DNA of 59,707 nt, from contig JAHWKY010000031.1 of NCBI GenBank assembly GCA_019347575.1, positions 1-59,707 on the forward strand, written 5' to 3'. The DNA comes from Actinomycetota bacterium. Lineage in GTDB: Bacteria; Actinomycetota; Nitriliruptoria; Nitriliruptorales; Nitriliruptoraceae. Below, in pieces: positions 1-47,498 of the stretch (position 1 is its first letter; each line of letters opens with the position of its first letter). The notes beneath the pieces are model-generated. The model had not been told where the DNA came from. It searched no databases and saw only the letters and a program-made list of their open reading frames with translations. The translations under genes were made by a program, and so were the position numbers.

Positions 1-338
1 TCATCCCGCTGGGGCCCTCGGCCAGCTTCGGGTTCCAGATCGTCGCCGGCGCCTCGGTCGGCAACGGCGACTGGATGATCCACTGCCACGTCCAACGCCA
101 CTCCGACCTGGGCATGTTCACCTTCCTCCACGTCGTAGAGCCGGGCGCCTTCCCCCTCCCACCCGCCGGGTCGATCGACACGCGGGAACACGCCGCCGCA
201 GGCGCCGCACTGGCCCAGACCGGCACCCGCTACCGGGGCGCCTCCCAGCTCCCACCCATCCAGTCGGGCCAACCCGACCTGGGCTACTACTGCTCCCTAC
301 CCCTGTCCGCGTGGGACCAGGCCCGCAACGCCACCTGA
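1..338 (+). CDS. Multicopper oxidase, C-terminal end (5' partial)
   Basis: The reading frame is open from the first bases of the window to a TGA at 336-338, so only about 111 C-terminal residues are present. They include HCHVQRHSDLGM, the classic HCHxxxH...GM ligand motif of the last cupredoxin domain of multicopper oxidases, which binds the type-1 copper and part of the trinuclear cluster. Such enzymes oxidise substrates while reducing oxygen to water and are usually exported. The tail beyond the motif (PPIQSG, DLGYYCSLPLS) is not a general family feature, but a close copy recurs near 45.6 kb on the other strand. The substrate cannot be told from this part. Confidence 0.9.
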   Translation, partial: IPLGPSASFGFQIVAGASVGNGDWMIHCHVQRHSDLGMFTFLHVVEPGAFPLPPAGSIDTREHAAAGAALAQTGTRYRGASQLPPIQSGQPDLGYYCSLPLSAWDQARNAT

Positions 339-972
339 ACCAAACACCGCCACTCGCGCCAGCGTTCCTAGCGCTCGCGCAGTCCGGCTCGTTGGACGCG
401 CAGGGAGGCATCGGTCGCGATGTCCAGCCGCTGGGAAGCTGAGCGCCGTCTCCCCGTGCGCGCCCCGGGCGTCGCTACAGGACGGTGCGGTTCGACATGG
501 CTCGACTGGGAAGCGACGTGGCATCACGATCATCCACCCCACTGCCGTCGAGTGATGGACGTCGAGAACACCAACTCGCAGGGGCGTCGATGAGGCAGTC
601 TACGACCGGATTGTCCTCCCCTGGGACCCACGTCAAGGTCACGCTGTTGGACTGCTCAGGTCACGAGGACTTCGGCATCAAGGTCGACCTGACCGTGCCA
701 AGTCGTGCCAACCGCGCACGTCGCGAGGCTGCCTCAACTGTCCCGGTTCGACGTATCTCGCTGGGTTCGAGGCAGGTTCCTGGACTACGGATCAGGCGGC
801 CGGGGGTTCGAACCCCTCCCAGCGCGCACCGCAGACCCGCGCTACGGCGGCGGTTTCGCCGTACAGTGATCCACGAGTTGCGAGCGCGGCCCGGTCGCCT
901 GCCCCGGCCGCAAACGCGTCAAGCTCCCGAGCGAGATGGTCTCATGCCACGAACCGAGACCTGGAGCGCGCG
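339..972. other. Non-coding stretch with a tRNA-like fragment
   Basis: No convincing gene is seen here. Reading frames that stay open lack the strong C/G third-position bias of neighbouring genes and run through a tRNA-derived sequence at 782-826. The base composition is less GC-rich than the flanks. Together with the tRNA fragment this suggests the scarred edge of a past insertion, which is an inference. Confidence 0.5.
782..826 (+). pseudogene. tRNA-Arg(ACG)-like 3' fragment
   Basis: The stretch reads like the 3' half of a tRNA-Arg: an anticodon loop CTACGGA (anticodon ACG), then a T-arm GGGGG-TTCGAAC-CCCTC and an acceptor 3' strand CCAGCGC with G as discriminator base. The matching acceptor 5' strand and a proper D-arm are missing upstream, and the anticodon stem is imperfect. 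It therefore looks like a displaced 3' end, as left behind when an element integrates into a tRNA gene, rather than a working tRNA. An intact tRNA-Arg would then lie left of this window. Confidence 0.55.
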
Positions 973-35812: not shown

Positions 35813-35819
35813 GGACAGG

Positions 35820-36292
35820 GATGTGTGGTTGACGCGGTATCCCGCGCCCACCACGCATCCTTGGGGCAGGGGAGGTCACGGGCTCTTCGGCGGCGGATCC
35901 TCTCAAAGGCTGTGACGTCCGCTGGACCGGCGGGTCTCGGGCGCCGGCGGGGTGCGCGGCTACTGGACCTCGGGTGAGCACGTCGACCCGACGACTGGCG
36001 AGTCCCCCGAAGCCACCCGCTGCGATCCCATCCCCTACGGCGGAGGCGGCACGCCCAGCAGCGCCACCCCGTCACGGCTCATGCACAACTCGCAGCGCGA
36101 CCTCGCCCTGTCCATCCCGGACGAAGAGGGCTCACACGGCGTGGTCCTCAAGGCCACCGAGGAGGCCATCTCGTCGAACTGCAACTCCTCCGGGCGGCTG
36201 GCGACCTACGACCTTCGGCTACCTCTGCCCGCTCACCTGACCTGATCCCAACGGTGCGAGGTTGGCGCGGCATCTCGCGTCAACCACACATC
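35820..36292. mobile_element. 473-bp segment with 29-bp terminal inverted repeats
   Basis: The two ends, 35820-35848 and 36264-36292, are inverted copies matching at 26 of 29 bases, with the outer 17 identical (GATGTGTGGTTGACGCG). No transposase fits inside, so it could be a non-autonomous (MITE-like) element. No clear target-site duplication is visible. One short open frame lies within. Alternatively these could be two related regulatory sites. Confidence 0.45.
35952..36245 (+). CDS. Possible small protein inside the inverted-repeat segment
   Basis: A 97-residue frame from a GTG at 35952 with reasonable G/C third-position bias. The product (YWTSGEHVDPTTGES at the start, MHNSQRDLALSIPDEEG in the middle) has two cysteines and no hydrophobic segment. 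It matches nothing I know. It could be a fragment of a larger gene caught in the element or a real cargo gene. The frame has a poor ribosome site. Confidence 0.33.
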   Translation: MRGYWTSGEHVDPTTGESPEATRCDPIPYGGGGTPSSATPSRLMHNSQRDLALSIPDEEGSHGVVLKATEEAISSNCNSSGRLATYDLRLPLPAHLT

Positions 36293-36345
36293 GTCGAGCC
36301 TGAGCGGCGTTCGGGATGGCCGTGCAGCGTGACTAGCGTCGGGGC

Positions 36346-37644
36346 ATGGACCGTCACCACCGCAACCAGTTGCTGCTCGTCGGCGTCCTCGTCGGCCTGA
36401 CCATCCTCGGACTGGTCGTCCTGTGGCCCGATGCGGGGCGCCTGCCCGAGGTCGATCCGCCGGAGGACCTCGTCGGTGGACGACTCGTCTCGGTGGAGCT
36501 GTTCGAGGAGGAGGCGGACCCGTCGTTCGGGATGTCGGGCGAGATGGTTCGGCTCGACGTCGAGCTCACCGATGGAGCCGACCGGGGGGAGACCGTCACC
36601 ATCGAAGCTCCGGTCGAGGGCTACCCGGAGTTCGAGGTCGGCGACGCGGTCCAGCTCGCGACCTCCGAGATCCAGGGCGAGGTGATGTACTTCGTCGTCG
36701 ACTTCGACCGGACCGGGGCGTTGGTGGCGCTGGGTCTGCTCTTCGTCATCGCCGTCGTCGCGATCAGCCGCTGGAAGGGGGTGCGGTCCCTCATCGGCCT
36801 GGGCCTCTCGCTGCTGGTGGTGACCGAGTTCATCATCCCTGGGATCGTCACCGGCGGGAACCCCGAGTTCGTGGCGCTCGTCGGGGCGATGGCCGTGATG
36901 CTCCTGACCCTCTACCTCGCGCACGGCGTCAACGAAATGACCACCGCTGCCGTGCTCGGCACGACCGCGGCCCTCACGCTGACCATCGCGCTCGCGACCC
37001 TGTTCATCGACCTCGGGAAGCTCACCGGCTTCGCCAGCGAGGAGGCCAACCTCGCCCGCTTCGCCATCGAGGGTCTCGACCTCAAGGGACTCGTGCTGGC
37101 GGGGTTGATCATCGCAGCCCTCGGCGTGCTCGACGACGTGACAGTCACCCAGGCCTCGACCGTGTTCGCGCTACACGACGCCAACCCGAACCAGGGCTGG
37201 GGCGAACTGTTCAGGCGTGCGATGACGGTCGGTCGCGACCACATCGCCTCCACCGTGAACACGCTGTTCCTCGCGTACGCCGGAGCGTCTCTCGCCCTAC
37301 TCGTGCTGTTCGCGACCGGTGGGTTGAGCACCGGCGAGATCGTCAACACCGAGGTGCTCGCCGAGGAGATCGTCAAGACCGTCGTGGGCTCGCTCGGGCT
37401 CATCTCGGCGGTGCCGTTCACCACCGCGCTCGCGGCGACGACGGCGCTGCGGCGTCCCCGGACCGCCATCGGGGCAGCGGCGGGCCACGTCCACGCTGGG
37501 CCGGTCGTGCCGCACCCCGTCCTCGACGACCGCCCCGACGAGGACCTCGACGACGAGGAGCGCGCCTACCGCTCCTGGGTGCGGTTCCTCCGAGACGGAC
37601 CCGCGTCGGGGCTTCCCGAGCGTCCTCCCGATGACGAGTCCTGA
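36346..37644 (+). CDS. YibE/F-like membrane protein
   Basis: 432 residues. One N-terminal helix precedes an extracytoplasmic beta domain (~40-120) and then about seven hydrophobic helices. Features of the YibE/F family are LAHGVNEMTTAAVLGTTAALTLT and GVLDDVTVTQASTVFAL, with the conserved Asp-Asp and polar residues inside the membrane. The cytoplasmic tail is acidic with two histidines (GHVHAGPVVPH), which might bind metal. The transported substrate is unknown for the family. The ATG at 36346 follows the inverted-repeat segment by 53 bp. Confidence 0.87.
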   Translation: MDRHHRNQLLLVGVLVGLTILGLVVLWPDAGRLPEVDPPEDLVGGRLVSVELFEEEADPSFGMSGEMVRLDVELTDGADRGETVTIEAPVEGYPEFEVGDAVQLATSEIQGEVMYFVVDFDRTGALVALGLLFVIAVVAISRWKGVRSLIGLGLSLLVVTEFIIPGIVTGGNPEFVALVGAMAVMLLTLYLAHGVNEMTTAAVLGTTAALTLTIALATLFIDLGKLTGFASEEANLARFAIEGLDLKGLVLAGLIIAALGVLDDVTVTQASTVFALHDANPNQGWGELFRRAMTVGRDHIASTVNTLFLAYAGASLALLVLFATGGLSTGEIVNTEVLAEEIVKTVVGSLGLISAVPFTTALAATTALRRPRTAIGAAAGHVHAGPVVPHPVLDDRPDEDLDDEERAYRSWVRFLRDGPASGLPERPPDDES

Positions 37645-37727
37645 TCGGCTCAGAACCGCCTGGATCGCCCCGTAGCCCCCCGTAGCCCCCCAACGGAGCC
37701 GGTATCCTGCCCGACCGCACCGATCGT

Positions 37728-37742
37728 GCACGTCGGACGTGC
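37728..37742. promoter_or_regulatory. Palindromic site, possible operator
   Basis: GCACGTCGGACGTGC is a perfect 7-bp inverted repeat around one base, in the 228-bp gap between the YibE/F gene and a convergent small gene. Its position after both genes' 3' ends is odd for an operator, so it may also be a chance palindrome in GC-rich DNA. Confidence 0.3.
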
Positions 37743-37872
37743 GTGCGAACAGACCAGGGATCACAGACGCCGAGGACGATCGCGCGGCGCACCCCACCGC
37801 AACGAGGAACGTCCGACGTCGTGCCGGCCTGACCGACTCAGCAGCAGACGCCGTCGGCTCCCGCCGGGGGCG

Positions 37873-38100
37873 TCATGCGTCCGCGACGCCGCGGTCACCA
37901 GGCGGATGGGTCAGCGCATCGCGGATGGCCGCGGCGAACGGCAGACCGGCGACGGCCTCTAGAGCGTCGTCGACGCCGGCCCGGTACGCCGCGGCGTCCT
38001 CGAACAGCCAGGCGTTGTCGCGGAGCTGTTGCCGCAAGGCCAGCGCCACGTGCACGTCTCGGTCGCGGGTGTCGGGTGTCGTTACGGACTCGATAGTCAC
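37873..38100 (-). CDS. Small hypothetical protein (75 aa)
   Basis: The GTG at 38100 is preceded by GGAGGAGG at ideal distance, a strong sign that the frame is translated. The protein (DVHVALALRQQLRDNAWLFEDA in the middle) is predicted to be helical, soluble and cysteine-free. No family is recognised. It converges on the YibE/F gene and is divergent from the secreted propeller-like gene, with about 400 bp in between. Confidence 0.65.
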   Translation of the reverse strand: MTIESVTTPDTRDRDVHVALALRQQLRDNAWLFEDAAAYRAGVDDALEAVAGLPFAAAIRDALTHPPGDRGVADA

Positions 38101-38507
38101 GGTTCCTCCTCCGGTCGGTCCCCGACTGGTGGTCGTACCGACTCCCCGGAGTCATCCCGACGTCGGGACGCGTTCTGCGGCGCCCACTCACCGCGTTGCG
38201 ATCCCAGGGTGGCGATCCCGGCTCGGGGGGACCACCTGCACGAGGGTGAAACGTGGGAACGGACCGCGCTCCGTCGGCGCGCGCGCCCGCTCCGTGGTGG
38301 CGTTTCCACGAGCAGCGCGGGACAGCCTCGAGCGAACCCCCTGCCTACGAGGGACCCGGGCGCACGGTCCTGCCGTCGTGAGGAGCGCGCGCCCAGCGCT
38401 CGGTGCTGGGAGGTGCTCCTCCCGCTCTGGGCGAAATCCTCCCACAGCCGCACGGCGCCGGTCACGGGATCGGGTCTCTGCACGGCGGGACCTCGGGGGT
38501 GTCCCAC
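38101..38507. other. Long divergent intergenic region with a strong stem
   Basis: No gene is supported in these 407 bp between two divergent genes. A 10-bp stem pairs CGTGGGAACG (38252-38261) with CGTTTCCACG (38301-38310), enclosing a further GC-rich structured loop. It could be part of a regulatory RNA leader for the plus-strand gene, but it matches no riboswitch class I know. Confidence 0.35.
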
Positions 38508-40541
38508 ATGCAGCGACCTCGTCGTCATCGTGCCGCCACGACCATCCTTGCGCTCCTCGTCGCTGCACCGGTGCTCCTGGCCGCGACGACCTCCGCACCG
38601 CCGGTGCGCGATCGGGCGCGCCACGCGCGCCCCGATGCGGTCACGGTGACCCGTGGTGACGACGGGGCGCGCGTCGACCGTCCGACCACGAGCCCGGGCC
38701 GACTGGTGGCGAGGTCTGGCGCCCCGGACGATCCCGCTACCCACGCGCGCGCGGTCCGAGCTCTGGCAGCGGCGACGACCGACCTGCCCATCCCGACCAC
38801 CCTCGCGAGGGAGACCGCGGCGGAGGAGCCGACCGAGGCCAACCGTTTCGGTGTCCCGGCGGGCGACCTCGACGGCGACGACCTGACCGACGTGCTCGTC
38901 ACCGAGTACGTCTTCGACACCGCAACCGTGCACGTCGTCGCCCTCAGCGGTGCGGACGGCTCGCAGCTGTGGCGGAGCACCCTGCCCGAGACGGCCTACG
39001 ACGCCTTCGCGTACCCGGCCGGTGACCTCGACGGCGACGACGCCGACGACATCGTGGTCGAGAGCCTCGTCGTCGATCAGGCCCAGGGCGGCGGGGAGTG
39101 CCTACCGCAGGCGTGCCTCTTCGCGGATGGCCTGACCTACTCCTGGTCGCTCCAGGCACGCCGCGGTGGCGACGGCAGCGAGCTTTGGTCGCACGAGTTC
39201 GATGGACAGCTGGGGGCAGCGTTCGGCGAGGGCGGCACCGGCCCGACCTACGTCTGGGAGGAAGCCGTGGTCGCGACCAACGCCGGGGTGTTCGCGATCC
39301 CGGCCGGCGACCTCGACGGCGACGGGGCGGCCGAGCTGCTGCTCAATCGCTGGGACCTCGTGTACGACGACACCTACGGTGAGTTGTTCGGTCCCGCGGC
39401 CGTGTTCGGAGAGGGGATCACGCAGCTGGTGGCCACCAGCGGCGAGGTCCTCGACGGCGCGACGGGCACGAGCCGGCACACCCGGACGTCGGAGTGGGGG
39501 CCGCAGGGCGGTCTGCTGTGGCCGGCCGGCGACCTCGACGGCGACGGTGGCGGGGACCTCACCTGGGAGACGGACTCCTGGACCCCCGCGTGGGCCGGGG
39601 GATGCGCCTACGTCCTTGTCCTACGGCAGTGCGGGTCCACCCCCGGCGGCGGATCGTCGCTCGAGGTTGTGGGGGTCGACGGCGCGACGTTCGCCGACCT
39701 GTGGTCGTCGACGTTCGGGGCGTACACGTGGGTGTTCCCCGGCGGCGACTTCGATGGCGACGGCGCCACCGATCTGATGCTCCACGTGTGGTTGGACGAC
39801 GAGCCCTGGGTCCGGACCGGCGTCGTGTCGGGCCGGACCGGTGCCACGCTCTGGACGCGCGACGTCGATTCGTGGACGGTCCCGGTCGGCCCCATCGGTG
39901 GTGCGCCGGGCGACGACCTCGTCCTCATCGTGTTCGACCTCGACGACCGCGGGTCGACGTTGGTGACCTCGGAGCGGGTGGACGGCGCCACCGGCGACCT
40001 GTTGTTCGTGACCGGGTCCCCGGGCCGTGAGGACTGGGACTGGATGATGATCAGCACGTTCGGCGACGGCGATGCCGACGGGGTCGGCGACATCCTGTTC
40101 GAGGTGGCGTCGTGGAACGGGGGGACGGTCACGCTCGAGTCGGGCCGCACCGGCGATGCGATCCACGACGCCCCGATGACGGGCTGGAGCCTCGCCGCCG
40201 GTGACGTGAACGCTAACGGCGCCACCGACCTGCTGACGATGACGTGGGGTTGGGACCCCGTCACGTCCGCGGACACGATCTCACTCGAGGTCACCACCCT
40301 CCCCGACGGCGCCCCGCTGTGGAGCGCGACCGTCAACGCCTACGACCTGTGGCCCATCCCGGTGCAGGACCTCGCGGGCGACGTTGGCGACGACCTGGTG
40401 GTCTCGGGGTACGCGTACGGCGAGACCTACGAGTCGCGCGTCGCGGTACGCGACGGCCGCACCGGGACCGAGCGGTGGGGCTACGGCGACGAACTCGTCG
40501 GCGGCGGCGAATGGTGGGGCCCCTGCGAGCCGTTCTGCTAG
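38508..40541 (+). CDS. Secreted FG-GAP/VCBS-like propeller protein
   Basis: 677 residues with a signal peptide (RHRAATTILALLVAAPVLLAA). Eight repeats carry a calcium-binding-like loop, most with the pattern P-A-G-D-x-D-G-D-x-x-x-D and a following hydrophobic strand: PAGDLDGDDLTDVLV, PAGDLDGDDADDIVV, PAGDLDGDGAAELLL, PAGDLDGDGGGDLTW, PGGDFDGDGATDLML, and three weaker ones. This spacing suggests a beta-propeller like those of integrin alpha chains. Cysteines are few, including the C-terminal GPCEPFC. No membrane anchor is seen, so it is probably released. Ligand unknown. Confidence 0.82.
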   Translation: MQRPRRHRAATTILALLVAAPVLLAATTSAPPVRDRARHARPDAVTVTRGDDGARVDRPTTSPGRLVARSGAPDDPATHARAVRALAAATTDLPIPTTLARETAAEEPTEANRFGVPAGDLDGDDLTDVLVTEYVFDTATVHVVALSGADGSQLWRSTLPETAYDAFAYPAGDLDGDDADDIVVESLVVDQAQGGGECLPQACLFADGLTYSWSLQARRGGDGSELWSHEFDGQLGAAFGEGGTGPTYVWEEAVVATNAGVFAIPAGDLDGDGAAELLLNRWDLVYDDTYGELFGPAAVFGEGITQLVATSGEVLDGATGTSRHTRTSEWGPQGGLLWPAGDLDGDGGGDLTWETDSWTPAWAGGCAYVLVLRQCGSTPGGGSSLEVVGVDGATFADLWSSTFGAYTWVFPGGDFDGDGATDLMLHVWLDDEPWVRTGVVSGRTGATLWTRDVDSWTVPVGPIGGAPGDDLVLIVFDLDDRGSTLVTSERVDGATGDLLFVTGSPGREDWDWMMISTFGDGDADGVGDILFEVASWNGGTVTLESGRTGDAIHDAPMTGWSLAAGDVNANGATDLLTMTWGWDPVTSADTISLEVTTLPDGAPLWSATVNAYDLWPIPVQDLAGDVGDDLVVSGYAYGETYESRVAVRDGRTGTERWGYGDELVGGGEWWGPCEPFC

Positions 40542-40668
40542 ACGCGGGAGAGCGTCGCACGTTGGTCGATGTGCCGGTCCTGGTGCCTTCTAGCACCCAA
40601 CCCGGCACACCGACGCGACCGAGCGAGACGGCACACCGACGCACAGGCGGCGTAGCGACCGGATTGGC

Positions 40669-40713
40669 GGGTGGTCGGGGGCAGAATCGAACTGCCGACA
40701 CCACGATTTTCAG
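40669..40713. repeat. Attachment site, displaced tRNA-Phe 3' end
   Basis: Forty-five bases identical to 47423-47467, covering the tRNA-Phe 3' part from the anticodon loop to just past the 3' end. The tRNA 5' half is missing here, so this is the original chromosomal 3' end pushed aside by integration. Confidence 0.92.
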
Positions 40714-40793
40714 GAGCGCCTGGCGCACGAATCCGGGCCTCTACAGGCGAACTGAGGCATTTCAGCTCGCCCGAGAGCGCCCGTTGTGGTCGC

Positions 40794-40815
40794 GAGTGGT
40801 CACGGAATGGTCACG
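40794..40815. repeat. Arm-type iterons, left end of the element
   Basis: Two tandem 11-mers, GAGTGGTCACG and GAATGGTCACG, 80 bases inside the left attachment repeat. A matching pair lies near the right end. Their placement on both sides of the core in the circular form fits arm-type binding sites of a tyrosine recombinase. Confidence 0.75.
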
Positions 40816-41331
40816 CCGATCCGGAGCCATGCGGCGGACCCTGGGTCGGTGATGAACTCGAAGCCGCGGGTGGAAGCCTGTCAGCGGCATCCGCGACGCT
40901 CTGGCCGAACGCGTTCCTCGCCCCGAGGTCCGCGATCGCCGCTCGTGTCTCGTCGGGCACGAAGGTGGTGTGCGTGAGCAGCACCGGCGCCCCGAGTTGA
41001 CCGGCGAGTAGTTGCCGGCGAGGGAATCGGGGAACTTGTCACCGCGTGCGATGAGGACCCCATCGGAGGGGTCGAAGCCGTCCCGTGCGATCAGGCTCGC
41101 CGTATCGAAGCGTGTCGAGCCGCGATAGCGCTCGGAGCGGACGAGGCCGTCGCCGGACCAGTCGACCACGGTGCCCGTCACGCCGGGGAACGACGAACGC
41201 GGCGGCGCGGCATCCGACGCGGGCGGTGCGAGTCCGAGCAGCAGCGCCACCCCGAGCAGCGCCCCGAGCACGTACGTGATGGGTCGCTCACGCGCCGGCT
41301 GACCTGCGCGTATGTGGTGACCCATGACCAT
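40811..41331 (-). pseudogene. Frameshifted cell-wall-binding repeat (CWB2) protein remnant
   Basis: The start (ATG at 41331 or 41325) gives a signal peptide (VLGALLGVALLLGLAPPASDA) and the opening of a CWB2 cell-wall-binding repeat: RYRGSTRFDTASLIARDGF and LIARGDKFPDSLAGN. Near 41005-41015 the frame breaks: the expected continuation AGQLGAPVLLTHTTFVPDETRAAI is found one frame away. It then runs on to a TGA at 40811, inside the left iterons, without further repeats. Intact proteins of this kind carry three repeats and a functional domain. This is thus a broken, truncated remnant at the element's edge. Confidence 0.75.
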
Positions 41332-41558
41332 CCCCTCGGCCGCTCCCCGTCGAGCGTCGGTTCCTGCCTCTCAGGGCCACGTGGTCTCGGGGCGGGAGCA
41401 GCGCCCGGGATGGCGGTCCTAGGTCCCTACGGATATCGGAGAACCCCGGACTCCCGACTGCGACCGAGCCGAGAGTTCGCGAGCCGCCGACGGCGCAGGT
41501 TCGGCTGCGCGCCCGCGACCCACCTCACGCCGACCTGAACCGCCTAGGCTCGTGACCG

Positions 41559-44279
41559 ATGGGTGGGCTCGTCGGGCGCACGGAGGAGGTGGCGAGGGTC
41601 GTCGCGGTGATCGGCGACCCGTCGGTGCCGGGCGCTGTGATCGAGGGTCCGCCGGGGGTGGGCAAGACGGTGCTGCTGCAGGTCGCCTGTGACGAGGCGG
41701 CTGACCGGGGCGCGGCGGTGCTGGTGGGCGCAGCCACCGAGCTGCGGTCGCGGTTGCCGTTCGCGCCGTTGGCCGAGGCGTTAGGGCTGAAACCGGATGC
41801 GGACGATCCGGGGCGAGCCGAGGTCGGGGCGCTCCTGAACGGCACCACCTCGGAGCAGCTCGACCCCGGCCAGCTGCGGTGGCGGGTCATCGAGGGCATC
41901 CTCGACGACCTGGAGCGACGCACGCTGCGGGTGCCGGTCGTGCTCGCGCTCGAGGACCTGCACTGGAGCGACGCCGACACCCTGGTCGCGCTCGAGCGGC
42001 TGGCCGATGCCGCGGGGCAGCTCGACCTGACGATGTTCGTCACGGCGCGTCCGCAGCCGCGACCGTCGGGGCTGGGCGCGACCCGGGAGGCGCTGCGGGA
42101 CGCGGGGTGCGCCGAGGTGACGCTGGGCGAGCTCGGTCCCGAGGAGGTCGAGGCACTCGCGGAACAGCATCTGGGCCGCGCCGTTGACGACGACATGCGG
42201 CGGTGGCTGTCAGCGGCGGGTGGCAACCCGCTGATCGTGACCGAGCTGCTGACCGCGGGAGTGGACGCGACCGCCGACAACCGGCTGGCCGCGGCGGTCA
42301 CCCGCCGCCTCGCGGGGCTGCCCGACGGGTGCGTCCGCGTGCTGGAGACCGCAGCCGTGCTCGGCGAGCGCTTCCGGCTCGCGGACCTCGCGACCGTTCG
42401 CGCCATGTCGGTGGCGCAGACCACGGAGGTGTTGCGCCCCGCTCTCGACACCGGTTTGGTGCGTGACGACCGTGGCGATCTGCTGTTCCGACACGCGCTC
42501 GTGCGCGACCACCTCTACGGCCGTCTGGGGAGCGCCGCGCAGGGGGCGTTGCACCGCGAGGTCGCGGTCGCGCTGCGGGACGCCGGCGCGCGACCCGACG
42601 CGATCGGGGACCACCTGGCCCGGTCCGCCATGGACCCGACGGGCGCGCTCGAGCTGCTCGAGGTTGCGGACGCGGTCGCCGACCACGCCCCCGCCGCCGC
42701 AGCGGACTGGGCCCGGACCGCCCGCGAGCACCTCACGGACGGGGACCCTGCGATCGTGCGCGCCCGACTCACCGAGGCTCGCGCGAGCGCTCTGGGTCTG
42801 CAGTACGACCGCGCGCTGGAGGTGGTGCGGCCACTGCTGCACGCCCCCATCCACGCGACCGCGCGGGCCGACGTCGCGATGGTCCTCACGATGGTGAACC
42901 TCATGCGTGGCCGCGAGGACGACGACGTGATCGATCTGCTGGTCGCCTCGCTCGACGACACCGACGCCGCGGATCAGGCACGGACCGTGGCTGCGCTCGC
43001 CCTGGTCCAGGTCGGACGGGTCGACGAGGCGGTCGAGGTCGTCGGACCGTTCCGTGCCGACACCTGCGACGATCCGACCGCGCGCTGCGTGGCCCTGGCC
43101 GTCGCAGCGATAGAGCACCTCAGCGCTGGCAGGGTGCAGGACGGGACGGAGACGGCGGCCGCAGGTCTCGAGCTGATCCGGGCCGCGGGGCTGCTGTCGA
43201 CGTGGGCGGGCCTGGAAGCGATGCAGCTGTTCATCTTCACGCGGCAGCCCGGCGACGACCTGAGCACCGCCGTCCTGCAGCAGGCGTTGGTCGACGCCGA
43301 ACGCGCCGGCTTCGGGCCTGCCGCTCTCCTGGCGCAGGCCCACTTCGCTGAGGCACTGGCGTGGCGCGGCGACTGGTCGGCGGCGGATGCGCACGCCACC
43401 ACGGTCCTGCGCGCCGACACCGTCCTGCACGCCTCGACGCTGCTCACGGCGTGGTTCACGCTGCTGTTCATGGCTGGGCGTCGTGGCGACCTCGCCACGT
43501 TCCGTCGGGCGCTCGCGGCCGAGGACGCGCCCAGCGCCGGGGCGGGCTTCTACCGCCGCGGGCTGGGGATGCTCGAGGCGTGGGTGCTCGAGATCAACGG
43601 CGAACCCGACGCGGGGTGGCGCCTCGCTGAGCAGACCCGCGCCCACTTCGAGACCGTCGACAAACCTGTGATCCACATCCACGGGGTCCCCTACCTCGAC
43701 CTCGCCGTGCGGCTGGGTCACGACGACCGTGCCCGCAGCTACCTCGCGGTCCTCGAGGAGGTCGCGGCGCACCTGGGACATCCCGCGTTCGACTGCGTCG
43801 TCGCTACCGGTCGAGCGCTCATCGACCGCGATCCCGACGCGGCCCGCCAGGCGCTGGAGCTGACCGCGACCGTCCCGGTGTTCCCCACGACGGTGGAGGC
43901 GTACACCTTCGCCGGGATCGCCCTGGGAGAGAACGGTCACCGCGACGAGGCGGTCGAGGCGTTGACCCAGGCGCGCGAGATCGCGGTCGAGGTCGACGCC
44001 ACCAGCGACATCGCGCGCCTCGACGCGGCGCTGCGCGACCTCGGCGTGATGGCGTTCCGGCCGCGCCAGCCGCGGGAGACGGTCGGCTGGGAGGCGCTCA
44101 CCGAGGCCGAGCAGCGCATCGTGCCGCTGGTCGCCGAAGGTCTGATCTACCGCGAGATCGGCGAGCGGCTGTTCATCTCCCGGCGGACGGTCGAGACCCA
44201 CGTCGCACGGATCTTTCGCAAGGTCGGCGTGCGGTCCCGGCGCGACCTCACGCGCGCCTACCTCAACCACTCACCGTGA
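41559..44279 (+). CDS. LuxR-family ATPase regulator (LAL type)
   Basis: 906 residues. An N-terminal AAA/STAND ATPase has Walker A (EGPPGVGKT, ending at residue 37), Walker B (VVLALEDLHWSDADTL) and the GNPLIVTELL sensor. A long TPR-like helical region follows, and a C-terminal LuxR helix-turn-helix (LTEAEQRIVPLVAEGLIYREIGERLFISRRTVETHVARIFRKVGV in outline). Such regulators respond to small molecules through the TPR part. It is convergent with the cupredoxin gene and overlaps its 3' end by 17 bp. It may control the element's copper-protein gene or host genes; this is inferred. Confidence 0.92.
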   Translation: MGGLVGRTEEVARVVAVIGDPSVPGAVIEGPPGVGKTVLLQVACDEAADRGAAVLVGAATELRSRLPFAPLAEALGLKPDADDPGRAEVGALLNGTTSEQLDPGQLRWRVIEGILDDLERRTLRVPVVLALEDLHWSDADTLVALERLADAAGQLDLTMFVTARPQPRPSGLGATREALRDAGCAEVTLGELGPEEVEALAEQHLGRAVDDDMRRWLSAAGGNPLIVTELLTAGVDATADNRLAAAVTRRLAGLPDGCVRVLETAAVLGERFRLADLATVRAMSVAQTTEVLRPALDTGLVRDDRGDLLFRHALVRDHLYGRLGSAAQGALHREVAVALRDAGARPDAIGDHLARSAMDPTGALELLEVADAVADHAPAAAADWARTAREHLTDGDPAIVRARLTEARASALGLQYDRALEVVRPLLHAPIHATARADVAMVLTMVNLMRGREDDDVIDLLVASLDDTDAADQARTVAALALVQVGRVDEAVEVVGPFRADTCDDPTARCVALAVAAIEHLSAGRVQDGTETAAAGLELIRAAGLLSTWAGLEAMQLFIFTRQPGDDLSTAVLQQALVDAERAGFGPAALLAQAHFAEALAWRGDWSAADAHATTVLRADTVLHASTLLTAWFTLLFMAGRRGDLATFRRALAAEDAPSAGAGFYRRGLGMLEAWVLEINGEPDAGWRLAEQTRAHFETVDKPVIHIHGVPYLDLAVRLGHDDRARSYLAVLEEVAAHLGHPAFDCVVATGRALIDRDPDAARQALELTATVPVFPTTVEAYTFAGIALGENGHRDEAVEALTQAREIAVEVDATSDIARLDAALRDLGVMAFRPRQPRETVGWEALTEAEQRIVPLVAEGLIYREIGERLFISRRTVETHVARIFRKVGVRSRRDLTRAYLNHSP

Positions 44280-45528
44280 TGTTGCCGGCCATCCCCCGCC
44301 GATCGTGCAGGAAGCACCAGTAGCCGAACGTGCCCTCCCGCGGGAACGTCGCCTCGAAGCGGTCGGGGAGCGGCTGTCCGGTCCACGGGTCGCACGAGTC
44401 GTCGCAGACCTCCCGGGGGGTGAGCAGCACACCCGAGTCGTGCACCGGTCGCGGCCCGGCGACGACGTTCCCCTGGGACCGCAGGGGCGCGGCGTAGGAT
44501 TGCGGTGCCCACAGCATCTCGAGCTCGCCCTCGGGGCAGTCGTTGCCGATCGCGAGGAACGCCAGCGCTCCCGGTGCACCCGGCGCCCCGGCGTCACGCC
44601 CGTCGACGTCGCACCGGAACTCGTAGTAGTGCAACGGCGTGAAGGGCCGGAGGTCGTCGGGGAGGAACGACACCGAGTGGCCCTCGGCACCGCCGGGCAT
44701 GGGCGGCAGCACGAACTCGACCTCGTCGCCCGGCTCGATCGTGAGGTTCGCCGGGAGGTAGCCCAGGATCGCGACGCGACCGTCAGGCGTCGACCCGCCC
44801 ACCTGGACCTGCCAGCGGGAGCGGTTACCGACGATCTCGCGGGGTGGTTGCTGGTAGGCGGCGAGGACCGCTTCGGCCGCGGCGGTGTCGGCCTGGACCT
44901 GAGCGCGTCGTTCCGCCTCGACCTCGGCGGGTGTCGGGATCTCCTCCTCATCCGCCACGACCTCGACCTCGCCGCGCATGGCGGGGTGGAAGATGCAGAA
45001 GTAGGCGTAGCTGCCGGGCGGCAGGTCGACCTGTACGCGCGCGGTGTAGTCGAGGTTCGGCGGGCTGGCGCCGGCGTTTAGGTACTGGTCGGGGCTGGAC
45101 AGCACGCACGGCGGGAGGTGCTCGCGGCTGGCTCCGAGGTTGCAGTCGTCACGCGACGGGAACAGACCGTCGAGACGGATCTGCGTCGGCAGCTCGTCGG
45201 GCACCAGGAGCGTGTCCTGCCGCTCGCCTCCGGGGTAGAAGGTCACGGAGTGCTCGCCTTCGTAGCGGAACCGCACGACGTCGCCGCGGTAGACCTGCAG
45301 CGTGTCGGGGTAGTAGGCGTGGTACTCGAGCCGGTCCGCCAGCGACGGCAGAGACGGCGACCCTGGATCGTCCGCGCCGACGACGACGAGGTGGTCATCC
45401 AGGGATGCGGCGATGTCGACGGACCGTTCCCCTGGCGTTGCCAGCGGGGCCGCCGCCACCGTGGACGCGATGCACAGGGTCGCGATCAGCGTCGGGATGC
45501 GGTCTCGGATCCGGTCGGACGTGGACAT
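44263..45528 (-). CDS. Secreted two-domain cupredoxin
   Basis: 421 residues with a signal peptide (IPTLIATLCIASTVAAAP). Two plastocyanin-like domains each carry type-1 copper ligands: the first has EHSVTFYPG and YFCIFHPAMRGEVEV (Cys, His, Met), and the second GHSVSFLPD and YWCFLHDRRGMAGNITV. Extra cysteines (DDCNLG, PPCVLS, CDDSCDPW) may form disulphides. It should carry electrons outside the membrane, perhaps to a multicopper oxidase. A fragment of such an oxidase gene lies just upstream, so the pair may once have been an operon. Confidence 0.87.
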   Translation of the reverse strand: MSTSDRIRDRIPTLIATLCIASTVAAAPLATPGERSVDIAASLDDHLVVVGADDPGSPSLPSLADRLEYHAYYPDTLQVYRGDVVRFRYEGEHSVTFYPGGERQDTLLVPDELPTQIRLDGLFPSRDDCNLGASREHLPPCVLSSPDQYLNAGASPPNLDYTARVQVDLPPGSYAYFCIFHPAMRGEVEVVADEEEIPTPAEVEAERRAQVQADTAAAEAVLAAYQQPPREIVGNRSRWQVQVGGSTPDGRVAILGYLPANLTIEPGDEVEFVLPPMPGGAEGHSVSFLPDDLRPFTPLHYYEFRCDVDGRDAGAPGAPGALAFLAIGNDCPEGELEMLWAPQSYAAPLRSQGNVVAGPRPVHDSGVLLTPREVCDDSCDPWTGQPLPDRFEATFPREGTFGYWCFLHDRRGMAGNITVSG

Positions 45529-45633
45529 CTTGAGATCCCCTCTGTTGGTGTCTACACGTCCAGGTTCCCCGTTGGTCCTACGGACATCGTCCGTAGCCTC
45601 TACGTACCGTGACCGCTCCGCCCTGGGCGAGGA

Positions 45634-45874
45634 TCAGGCGGCGTTGCGGGCCTGGTCCCAGTCGGACAGCGGCAGCGAGCAGTAGTAGCCGAGGTCGGTT
45701 TGACCGGACTGGATGGGGGGGAGTTGGCTGGCGCCCCGGTAGCGGGTGCCGGTCTGGGACAGTGCCGCTCCCGCGGCGGCCTGTGCGAGGGTGTCGATGG
45801 AGCCGGGCGGGTGGGAGGGGGAAGGTGCCGGGTTCGACGACGTGGAGGAAGGTGAACATGCCCAGGTGACCCAT
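45634..45874 (-). pseudogene. Frameshifted multicopper oxidase C-terminal fragment
   Basis: Read on the minus strand, the first frame gives LGMFTFLHVVEPGTFPLPP; one extra C then shifts the frame, and the second frame continues with PGSIDTLAQAAAGAALSQTG and ends at 45634 with LPLSDWDQARNAA. The oxidase end at the left edge of the window has almost the same residues in one frame. The upstream HCH copper motif is absent here. So this is a short, broken duplicate of a multicopper oxidase tail, with no copper site left. Confidence 0.88.
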
Positions 45875-45996
45875 GGCGGAGCCAGGTAGCGGTCCAGCGC
45901 AGCCTGTTCGTTCATCTCACGAAAGCCTACGACGCAGAGGTCGGACTACCGCACTCCGTAACGGGCGGCGCTGACCTTCTCGGCATGCGCCTCCGA

Positions 45997-46030
45997 GATA
46001 ATCCACGCAGCTCCCAGACAATCCACGCAG
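45997..46030. repeat. Two 14-bp direct repeats, 20 bp apart
   Basis: GATAATCCACGCAG (45997-46010) and GACAATCCACGCAG (46017-46030) differ at one base and are spaced two helical turns apart. They lie in the 261-bp gap between the oxidase fragment and the integrase gene. They could be a regulator binding site or a second class of recombination sites. Confidence 0.5.
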
Positions 46031-46176
46031 GGCGCCACTATGTGGTGTGTGGGCGCCTCCGGCCGTCACACCCGCCGCGCGCAACCACTGCTTTCGGCTT
46101 CGGAGCCGCAACGGGACCCGCGGGCAGGCGAGCGGCCAGGCTGCCTGAGGGAGTCGACAGACGGTCGGTCGGGCCT

Positions 46177-47262
46177 CTACGCGAGGTCACCGAGGGCGGC
46201 GTCGATGGCGGCCGCGGCGGGGGCGGACGAGGCCTCGAGCATGTGGGCGTAGACGGCTCGGACGGTCTGAGGGGTGTCGCCGATCCAGAAGGCGATCTTG
46301 TCGGCGGAGTGGCCCTCGTCGATCATCCAGGAGACGTAGGTGTGGCGGAGGCCGTGACTCGAGAGGTCGGGCGTGCCGGCGGCCTCGCAGGCGGCGTGCA
46401 GGGCGCGGTTGAACGAGGTCAGGCACGCGGAGCGCCCCGTGCTGGTCTGGATCAGCCAGCGTCGGTCGAACTCCGTGGCGGCGTGCTCGCGGTCACCGAG
46501 GTCCGGCAGGGGTGGCGCGTCGCAGCTCTCACGGATCAGCCGCTCGCAGGTCGCGACCGCGGACCGCGGGAGCTCGAGCGTGCGCTGCCGGTGGTTCTTG
46601 GTGGCCCGCACGGTGCCACGCGATACGCGGCGGCGGATGGTGATGGTGCCGCTGCGCAGGTCGACGTCGTGGGGTGTGAGGCCGGCGATCTCGCCGAACC
46701 GCGCCCCGAGCGAGAGCTGGAGCAGCCCGGTGTCGCGCTGCCAGCCGCGCATCTGGAGCAGCACCGCTCGTGCCGCGGGGCGCTCGAGCACCGCGTGGGG
46801 TGTCTTCTGGCGTCGAGGCCGGTGGCGCTTGGCGCGAGTCGGCGTACGCGTGATGACGTCGTCGGCCTCGGCCGACCGGAACAGCACCGACAGGGTCCGG
46901 TACACGCGGTCGGCCCGGGAGGCCGACACGGCATCGGTGACGCGGTTCAGCAGCGTGGTGATGTCGGTCGGGGTGACCTCTGCGGCGGGGCGCGGGCCCA
47001 GGTGTGGCAGGATCCAGTGGTCGAGGTTGACCTGGTGGAACCGGCGCGTGTTCGCGGGTGAGTTGCGGTAGCCCTCGATCCACCGCGACGCGTACTCGGC
47101 GACCGTCATGCGGCCGGGCAGCCCGGTCGTGATCGCCTTCGCTCGGGTGAGGACCTCCCACTCCTCGGCCTCGCGCTTCGTGACGAAGGTGGCCGCCACC
47201 CGGCGGCCTTCGACCTGCACCCGCACACGCCACGCTCCCGACGACAACCGATCGATGCCCAT
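46177..47262 (-). CDS. int: Tyrosine recombinase (integrase) of the tRNA-Phe element
   Basis: 361 residues from the ATG at 47262, with GGGAGG six to seven bases upstream. The N-terminus (WRVRVQVEGRRVAATFVTKREAEEWE) is an AP2-like arm-binding domain, followed by a SAM-like core-binding domain (~50-140). The catalytic residues are R188 (LGARFGEIAGLTPHDVDL), H303 and R306 (HGLRHTYVSWM), W326 (IAFWIGDT) and the nucleophile Y338 (VYAHML). All are in place, so the enzyme could be active. It is beside the rebuilt tRNA-Phe, and the right iterons lie upstream of its start, where binding could repress its own promoter. Confidence 0.93.
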   Translation of the reverse strand: MGIDRLSSGAWRVRVQVEGRRVAATFVTKREAEEWEVLTRAKAITTGLPGRMTVAEYASRWIEGYRNSPANTRRFHQVNLDHWILPHLGPRPAAEVTPTDITTLLNRVTDAVSASRADRVYRTLSVLFRSAEADDVITRTPTRAKRHRPRRQKTPHAVLERPAARAVLLQMRGWQRDTGLLQLSLGARFGEIAGLTPHDVDLRSGTITIRRRVSRGTVRATKNHRQRTLELPRSAVATCERLIRESCDAPPLPDLGDREHAATEFDRRWLIQTSTGRSACLTSFNRALHAACEAAGTPDLSSHGLRHTYVSWMIDEGHSADKIAFWIGDTPQTVRAVYAHMLEASSAPAAAAIDAALGDLA

Positions 47263-47317
47263 CTCGCGCCTCCCCTGGATGCCCGTCGTGAGCACGACGG
47301 TACGCAGGCGTCCGCGC

Positions 47318-47339
47318 GAGTGGTCACGGAGTGGTCACG
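47318..47339. repeat. Arm-type iterons, right end of the element
   Basis: Two exact tandem copies of GAGTGGTCACG, 83 bases inside the right attachment repeat and 55 bases upstream of the integrase start. With flanks, 26 bases match the left-end site at all but one position. Confidence 0.75.
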
Positions 47340-47422
47340 CGGCTGTGGATAACCCGAGATGGGAGGAGATGGGAAACCGCCTCGAACGGGCCGCTACGCG
47401 GCCCTGCGGGGCGGTTCGCGGA

Positions 47423-47467
47423 GGGTGGTCGGGGGCAGAATCGAACTGCCGACACCACGATTTTCAG
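47423..47467. repeat. Attachment site within the intact tRNA-Phe gene
   Basis: The right copy of the 45-bp repeat. It spans the tRNA-Phe 3' part from the anticodon loop outward, so integration rebuilds a whole tRNA gene. Confidence 0.92.
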
Positions 47468-47498
47468 TCGTGTGCTCTACCTACTGAGCTACCCGACC
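47426..47498 (-). tRNA. tRNA-Phe (GAA)
   Basis: The 73-base cloverleaf has acceptor GGTCGGG paired with CCCGACC, D-arm AGCTCAGTAGGTAGAGC, anticodon loop CTGAAAA (anticodon GAA) and T-arm GCAGTTCGATTCTGC. The CCA end is not encoded. It carries the integration site of the neighbouring element. Confidence 0.96.

Follow-up and report, generated by a model that had tools for sequence, protein, structure and literature searches.

Islands at tRNA genes, tandem arrays included, are a known form of mobile DNA, and only four arrays with three or more members are recorded in Islander (PMC4383910). In additive flexible islands, cassettes of variable size lie at one tRNA (Methylopumilus, PMC10872708; Alteromonas, PMC4119200), and actinobacterial ICEs integrate at tRNA 3' ends by means of a tyrosine integrase (PMC3218068). 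Here, we analyze a 59,707-nucleotide stretch of DNA from a Nitriliruptoria bacterium (the window; contig JAHWKY010000031.1 of assembly GCA_019347575.1), in which a 6.75-kb unit ends at an intact tRNA-Phe gene on one side and at an orphan tRNA-Phe 3' end on the other. We consider it very likely that the whole of the following account holds: the unit entered tRNA-Phe through its integrase, carries a captured and truncated multicopper oxidase (MCO)-cupredoxin operon with a LAL-type regulator, is now probably stable or dependent on functions supplied in trans, and belongs to a Nitriliruptoria family of small units.

The boundaries of the element are shown by its repeats. The initial annotation had described exact 45-bp direct repeats around some 6.8 kb, one within an intact tRNA-Phe and the other an orphan 3' end, and this description stands: the two copies match with zero mismatches (48 bp with one mismatch), lie 6,754 bp apart from start to start, and have no third copy in the 4.9-Mb assembly, and ARAGORN calls a complete tRNA-Phe(GAA) over the right-hand copy. 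A 45-base exact repeat cannot be a product of chance. The unit is thus bounded by an intact tRNA gene and a 3' fragment in the same orientation, with the integrase gene inside (Table 1). Joining the flanks (...40713 + 47468...) yields exactly one intact tRNA-Phe, followed by tRNA-Asp and tRNA-Lys, and this Phe-Asp-Lys cluster is kept in many genomes of the class Nitriliruptoria.

Table 1. Features of the tRNA-Phe element and of the left end of the window (window coordinates).
Feature	Position	Strand	Basis
Orphan tRNA-Arg(ACG) 3' end	783..827	+	98% over 45 bp; arm-like repeats CGTGCCAAGTCGTGCCAACCG upstream
Orphan tRNA-Phe 3' end (attR core)	40669..40713	-	exact 45-bp copy of tRNA-Phe 3' part
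CTCAGTT motif, -43 from core, family-conserved distal-end feature	40750..40756	-	exact motif, fixed offset
Remnant of secreted cell-wall-binding (CWB2) protein gene, N-terminal part only	40762..41331	-	weak PF04122 match
Distal (P') pair of arm-type direct repeats CGTGACCATTC-CGTGACCACTC	40791..40816	-	16-bp exact match to integrase-side arm
LAL-type LuxR regulator (AAA_16 + GerE), 906 aa	41559..44279	+	Pfam
Secreted two-domain cupredoxin, 421 aa	44263..45528	-	domain matches, ligand alignment
MCO gene 3' tail with frameshift, remnant	45631..45867	-	DNA identity
Tyrosine integrase	46177..47262	-	PF00589 + PF22022; family alignment; leader alignment
Integrase-side (P) pair of 11-bp arm-type repeats, CGTGACCACTC twice	47315..47340	-	leader analysis
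DnaA-box-like TTATCCACA between core and arm sites	47344..47352	-	similar box in most leaders; putative function
attL core within intact tRNA-Phe	47423..47467	-	right-hand copy of 45-bp repeat
tRNA-Phe(GAA), restored target gene	47424..47498	-	ARAGORN

Related genomes show the same target as a single copy. Five of them (G001, G004, G011, G027 and G028) have one tRNA-Phe and no second copy over the 13-15 kb examined downstream. In G027 a match to aceE begins 53 bp past the tRNA, and the genes that follow on the opposite side encode a GNAT protein and a response regulator, which is also the arrangement in the window. G024 has an orphan tRNA-Phe 3' end at 1.4 kb from aceE, and here too the side agrees with that in the window. 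The two comparisons that the initial annotation had called for thus came out in favor of an island: relatives retain a single tRNA-Phe, beyond which some have aceE, and they do not carry the genes of the element as syntenic core genes. The empty site is one that we infer from the five genomes above, which belong to other genera. Taken together, the exact att repeats, the paired arm-type repeats, the uninterrupted site in relatives and the integrase relatives beside tRNA 3' ends make an integrative element in tRNA-Phe well supported. That the end of the tRNA was merely duplicated beside a chance neighborhood of genes, with no integration at all, was already disfavored and is extremely improbable, since orientation and anatomy fit integration at a tRNA 3' end, the integrase is adjacent, arm repeats are present, and many homologous sites share the same core edge. 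Separately, YibE/F and FG-GAP genes (35813-40668) lie between aceE and the orphan att site and were not found in the corresponding interval of G001, G004 and G027; this segment is possibly older inserted DNA.

The integrase gene is intact, with a start at 47262 that is conserved in the family and a frame that stays open to 47295. All catalytic residues had been reported present, which is true of R, K, H-x-x-R and Y; in the family alignment the usual second His/Trp of the set is replaced by Asp (WIGDTP, in box II), giving R-K-H-R-Asp-Y. The same Asp occurs in every Nitriliruptoria relative whose C-terminus is present and is therefore a family trait rather than decay, and a 46%-identical relative on an IMG/VR contig has Cys at that position. 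The Asp in box II counts against taking the catalytic competence of the enzyme for granted. Scanning contigs with the integrase alignment turned up just four MAG loci, and the family was therefore surveyed by genome search. Full-length relatives are 59-63% identical and partial ones 58-68%, and, where the contig extends far enough to show the site, all are located downstream of a tRNA 3' end; relatives of 58-63% identity begin about 140-160 bp from tRNA-Phe (G014, G023, G033) or from a tRNA-Arg, which is tRNA-Arg(TCT) on contig C7 of the window's own genome (G000) and tRNA-Arg(ACG) in G033. Among 396 genomes evenly sampled across the phylum, a sample that rarer relatives could escape, full-length members (E < 1e-40) are confined to this family. 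Phage and plasmid records hold only distant integrases, of about 23-28% identity among the matches listed. The 46% relative (L200, 4780-6089) lies on a viral 29.7-kb IMG/VR contig and has the same leader layout, with a tRNA-like 3' end or core, a hairpin and 11-bp arm repeats CCAGCCAAATC, so that the integrase family may have originated in phages. An integron-type assignment of the window's integrase was rejected on a TIGR02249 score of 28.9 against a cut-off of 265.

Both inner ends of the element carry matching pairs of tandem arm-type repeats. The leaders of family members, from tRNA end to integrase start, contain an inverted repeat, and most contain a T/C-T-G/A-TCCACA box; a DnaA-box-like sequence (TTATCCACA or CTGTCCACA) lies between core and arm repeats in most of them. 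In full-length members the leader holds two tandem repeats with an 11-bp period whose sequence varies by element: CGTGACCACTC in the window, TCTGTCCAAAT in G023 and CGTGCCAAA on C7. Arm repeats that are alike within an element and unlike between elements would be expected if they are bound by a co-evolving integrase N-terminus. On the distal side, we examined 36 orphan tRNA-Phe and tRNA-Arg(ACG) 3' ends in about 20 genomes, and most of them show the end architecture of the window's element at fixed positions. CTCAGTT occurs at -43/-24 (Phe) or -41/-22 (Arg), within 1 bp, at 24 of the 36 sites, the window's element included, against a mean expectation of 0.02 in shuffled flanks; since the sites are homologous by descent, this count measures membership in the family and is not independent evidence. 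A few orphans have no such motif, for example that of G001, which lies 40 kb from its tRNA, and some of these are probably ends of other element types.

We propose that the element entered by tyrosine-integrase recombination between attP and the part of tRNA-Phe that runs from the anticodon loop to the 3' end, which would have restored the tRNA. At each end the N-terminus of the integrase would bind the pair of arm repeats, which lie about 85-105 bp inward of the core at the integrase end and about 78-103 bp inward of it at the distal end, while the catalytic domain would cut in the anticodon-loop region. The case for integration by the integrase at tRNA-Phe is strong.

The cargo can be traced to relatives within the same genome. 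The unit holds only five gene features (40714-47423), and the two intact cargo genes that had been named, a LuxR-type ATPase regulator and a two-domain cupredoxin, are borne out by Pfam; the two gene remnants are real as well and can now be identified, one as a CWB2 (PF04122) fragment, for which an open frame of 2075 aa on contig C3 is the best relative in the same genome, the other as the 3' end of an MCO gene. In the first domain of the cupredoxin the copper ligands H93, C178, H181 and M184 are invariant in seven homologues, and the second domain keeps a His and a C-x2-H-x4-M pattern, so that the ligands of two predicted type-1 copper sites are present. Its own genome encodes three paralogues of the protein, and of the 396 genomes only two others contain homologues (E < 1e-20). 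Of the MCO, the element retains the last 237 bp, about 100 bp upstream of the cupredoxin, with 87% DNA identity to window positions 105-341 and 86% to contig C16. At the latter locus the closest cupredoxin paralogue (56%) is directly preceded by the end of an intact MCO gene, and the two genes also adjoin in G085, from a distant family. This sister locus identifies the cargo as a captured, truncated MCO-cupredoxin operon plus the LAL regulator; the cupredoxin looks like a leftover of that operon rather than a purposeful minimal cargo. The best own-genome paralogue of the LAL protein (38%) adjoins a cupredoxin paralogue on contig C5, so that a regulator of this type recurs with the cupredoxin family. 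The LAL protein is thus a probable regulator, and may control the cupredoxin.

The same five features include no replication or double-stranded transfer genes, and none of them is a relaxase gene such as the TrwC gene of G014 or a relative of the Xis-like protein of C7. Phage packaging, structural and replication genes are likewise absent from the element, whose PHROGs matches comprise only the integrase and a weak plastocyanin match. Given that it has neither an Xis-like gene nor a relaxase, the element is now probably stable, or relies on Xis and transfer functions supplied in trans. A possible source of Xis is contig C7: there, at tRNA-Arg(TCT), the second full-length family integrase of the genome (60% identical) stands beside an HTH_17 Xis-like gene, in a locus (L041, 7718-16953) that also looks to hold a type I restriction-modification cluster and whose far att end was not found within 10 kb. 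G014 likewise has an HTH_17 Xis-like gene after its integrase. As the closest tRNA-Phe relative, encoding integrase, Xis-like protein and TrwC relaxase, G014 also lends weight to an evenly balanced proposition, namely that the element was once an integrative mobilizable or conjugative element, decayed by losing its xis, relaxase and any replication genes, and owes its small size to erosion only. The two gene remnants agree with such decay, as does an eroding member with a broken integrase in G035. Erosion alone sits poorly with an intact integrase gene and exact att repeats, and with the many equally small relatives that have the same ends and form tandem arrays, which make small size seem usual in the family. 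As a history of origin, however, decay is compatible with the integration and capture that we favor.

The initial annotation had judged the island to be none of the usual element types. The shared ends instead place it within a lineage-specific Nitriliruptoria family of small units at tRNA-Phe and tRNA-Arg(ACG) that stack in tandem. Orphan tRNA-Phe 3' ends with the same core edge occur in eight genomes (G003, G009, G013, G015, G024, G033, G034 and G035). More than a dozen genomes have orphan ends of tRNA-Arg(ACG), among which is the one at 783-827 of the window. The units are mostly 1.5-8 kb, often tandem and rich in toxin-antitoxin genes (PIN, ParE, Fic), with Schlafen-AlbA and AAA ATPase genes as further cargo, and many encode the N-terminus of the integrase alone (IntN). 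In G019, tRNA-Arg(ACG) is followed by three further att copies in tandem that delimit units of 2.4-5.4 kb, each opening with an ORF whose match to the integrase is limited to residues 1 to 110-150 and which has no catalytic domain near it; these units (L050, contig C342, 8673-20000) carry VapBC, Schlafen-AlbA, AAA ATPase or Tup-like transporter genes. G009 and G013, of two genera, encode fusions of the N-terminal piece to an HTH_17 domain of the excisionase type (L100, 761-1566; L102, 382-891), and a small toxin-like ORF comes after the L100 fusion. Neither this ORF nor the other small toxin-like ORFs matched a Pfam family, and the single IntN protein scanned (L050, 8819-9277) had no Pfam match either.

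These IntN units bear on how the family moves. They might be non-autonomous cassettes moved in trans by a full-length integrase, with the window's element as an autonomous member, a reading we think possible and rather unlikely. In its favor, the units keep the conserved end architecture, and in open IntN frames nonsynonymous changes are less frequent than synonymous ones (dN/dS 0.22-0.56; all five pairs tested fall below neutrality, with Fisher p 1e-6 to 0.007). Transfer between genera is supported by a 2.1-kb stretch after an att copy that is 93.5% identical between G003 (genus g4) and G009 (g10), against 79% for a core regulator gene between G003 and G031, of the same genus as G009. However, the single-contig genome G006 has IntN and no full-length family integrase, which speaks against present-day mobility there, and frameshifts or breaks disrupt several of the IntN copies (G019 unit 2, G016). 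Carried further, the same data could describe an integron-like but unrelated system, in which short toxin-antitoxin-rich cassettes, arrayed at tRNA-Phe and tRNA-Arg(ACG), would each hold a conserved attP and a selected IntN that lacks the catalytic domain, is sometimes fused to an excisionase-type HTH, and controls recombination by full-length integrases such as the window's in trans; we regard this as a doubtful proposal.

The orphan tRNA-Arg(ACG) 3' end near the left edge of the window is probably the end of a second island, similar in general type to the first and truncated where the contig begins. Upstream of that end, at a distance of 450 bp, lies the C-terminus of an MCO (3-338). No intact tRNA-Arg(ACG) gene was found in the assembly, so that this island cannot be delimited.

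By itself, the window's element is a small tRNA island with an unusual copper cargo. Its wider interest lies in the lineage-wide stacking, at tRNA genes, of units that are very small and share a strict end architecture. Many of these units have a truncated integrase or none and would for that reason escape standard island finders. The retained IntN could be tested as an instance of a recombinase fragment that persists for its binding and not for catalysis. The family has apparently not been described so far, and IntN cassettes appear to be its new part: no paper on this Nitriliruptoria family or on IntN units was found in the open-access PMC literature.

The tRNA islands of Islander (PMC4383910) resemble the window's element in having a tyrosine integrase, an intact tRNA, a displaced 3' fragment in the same orientation and a length above 2 kb. 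Islander demands an integrase gene in each unit and at least 2 kb, whereas the related units described here are often IntN-only or under 2 kb and would therefore tend to be filtered out. Unlike actinobacterial ICEs (PMC3218068), the window's element has no replication, transfer or Xis genes, and integrative mobilizable elements are better matched by the G014 relative, with its integrase, Xis-like gene and TrwC relaxase, than by the window's element, which has no relaxase gene. Tycheposons, as described second-hand in PMC10872708, are alike by that description in their tyrosine recombinase, tRNA site and cargo genes. The islands of Methylopumilus (PMC10872708) share cassettes marked by tRNA-end repeats; they and those of Alteromonas belong to a different phylum, whereas the units here combine a defined attP architecture with an integrase or IntN and use two tRNA targets. 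From integrons, finally, the units differ in being bounded by tRNA 3' ends.
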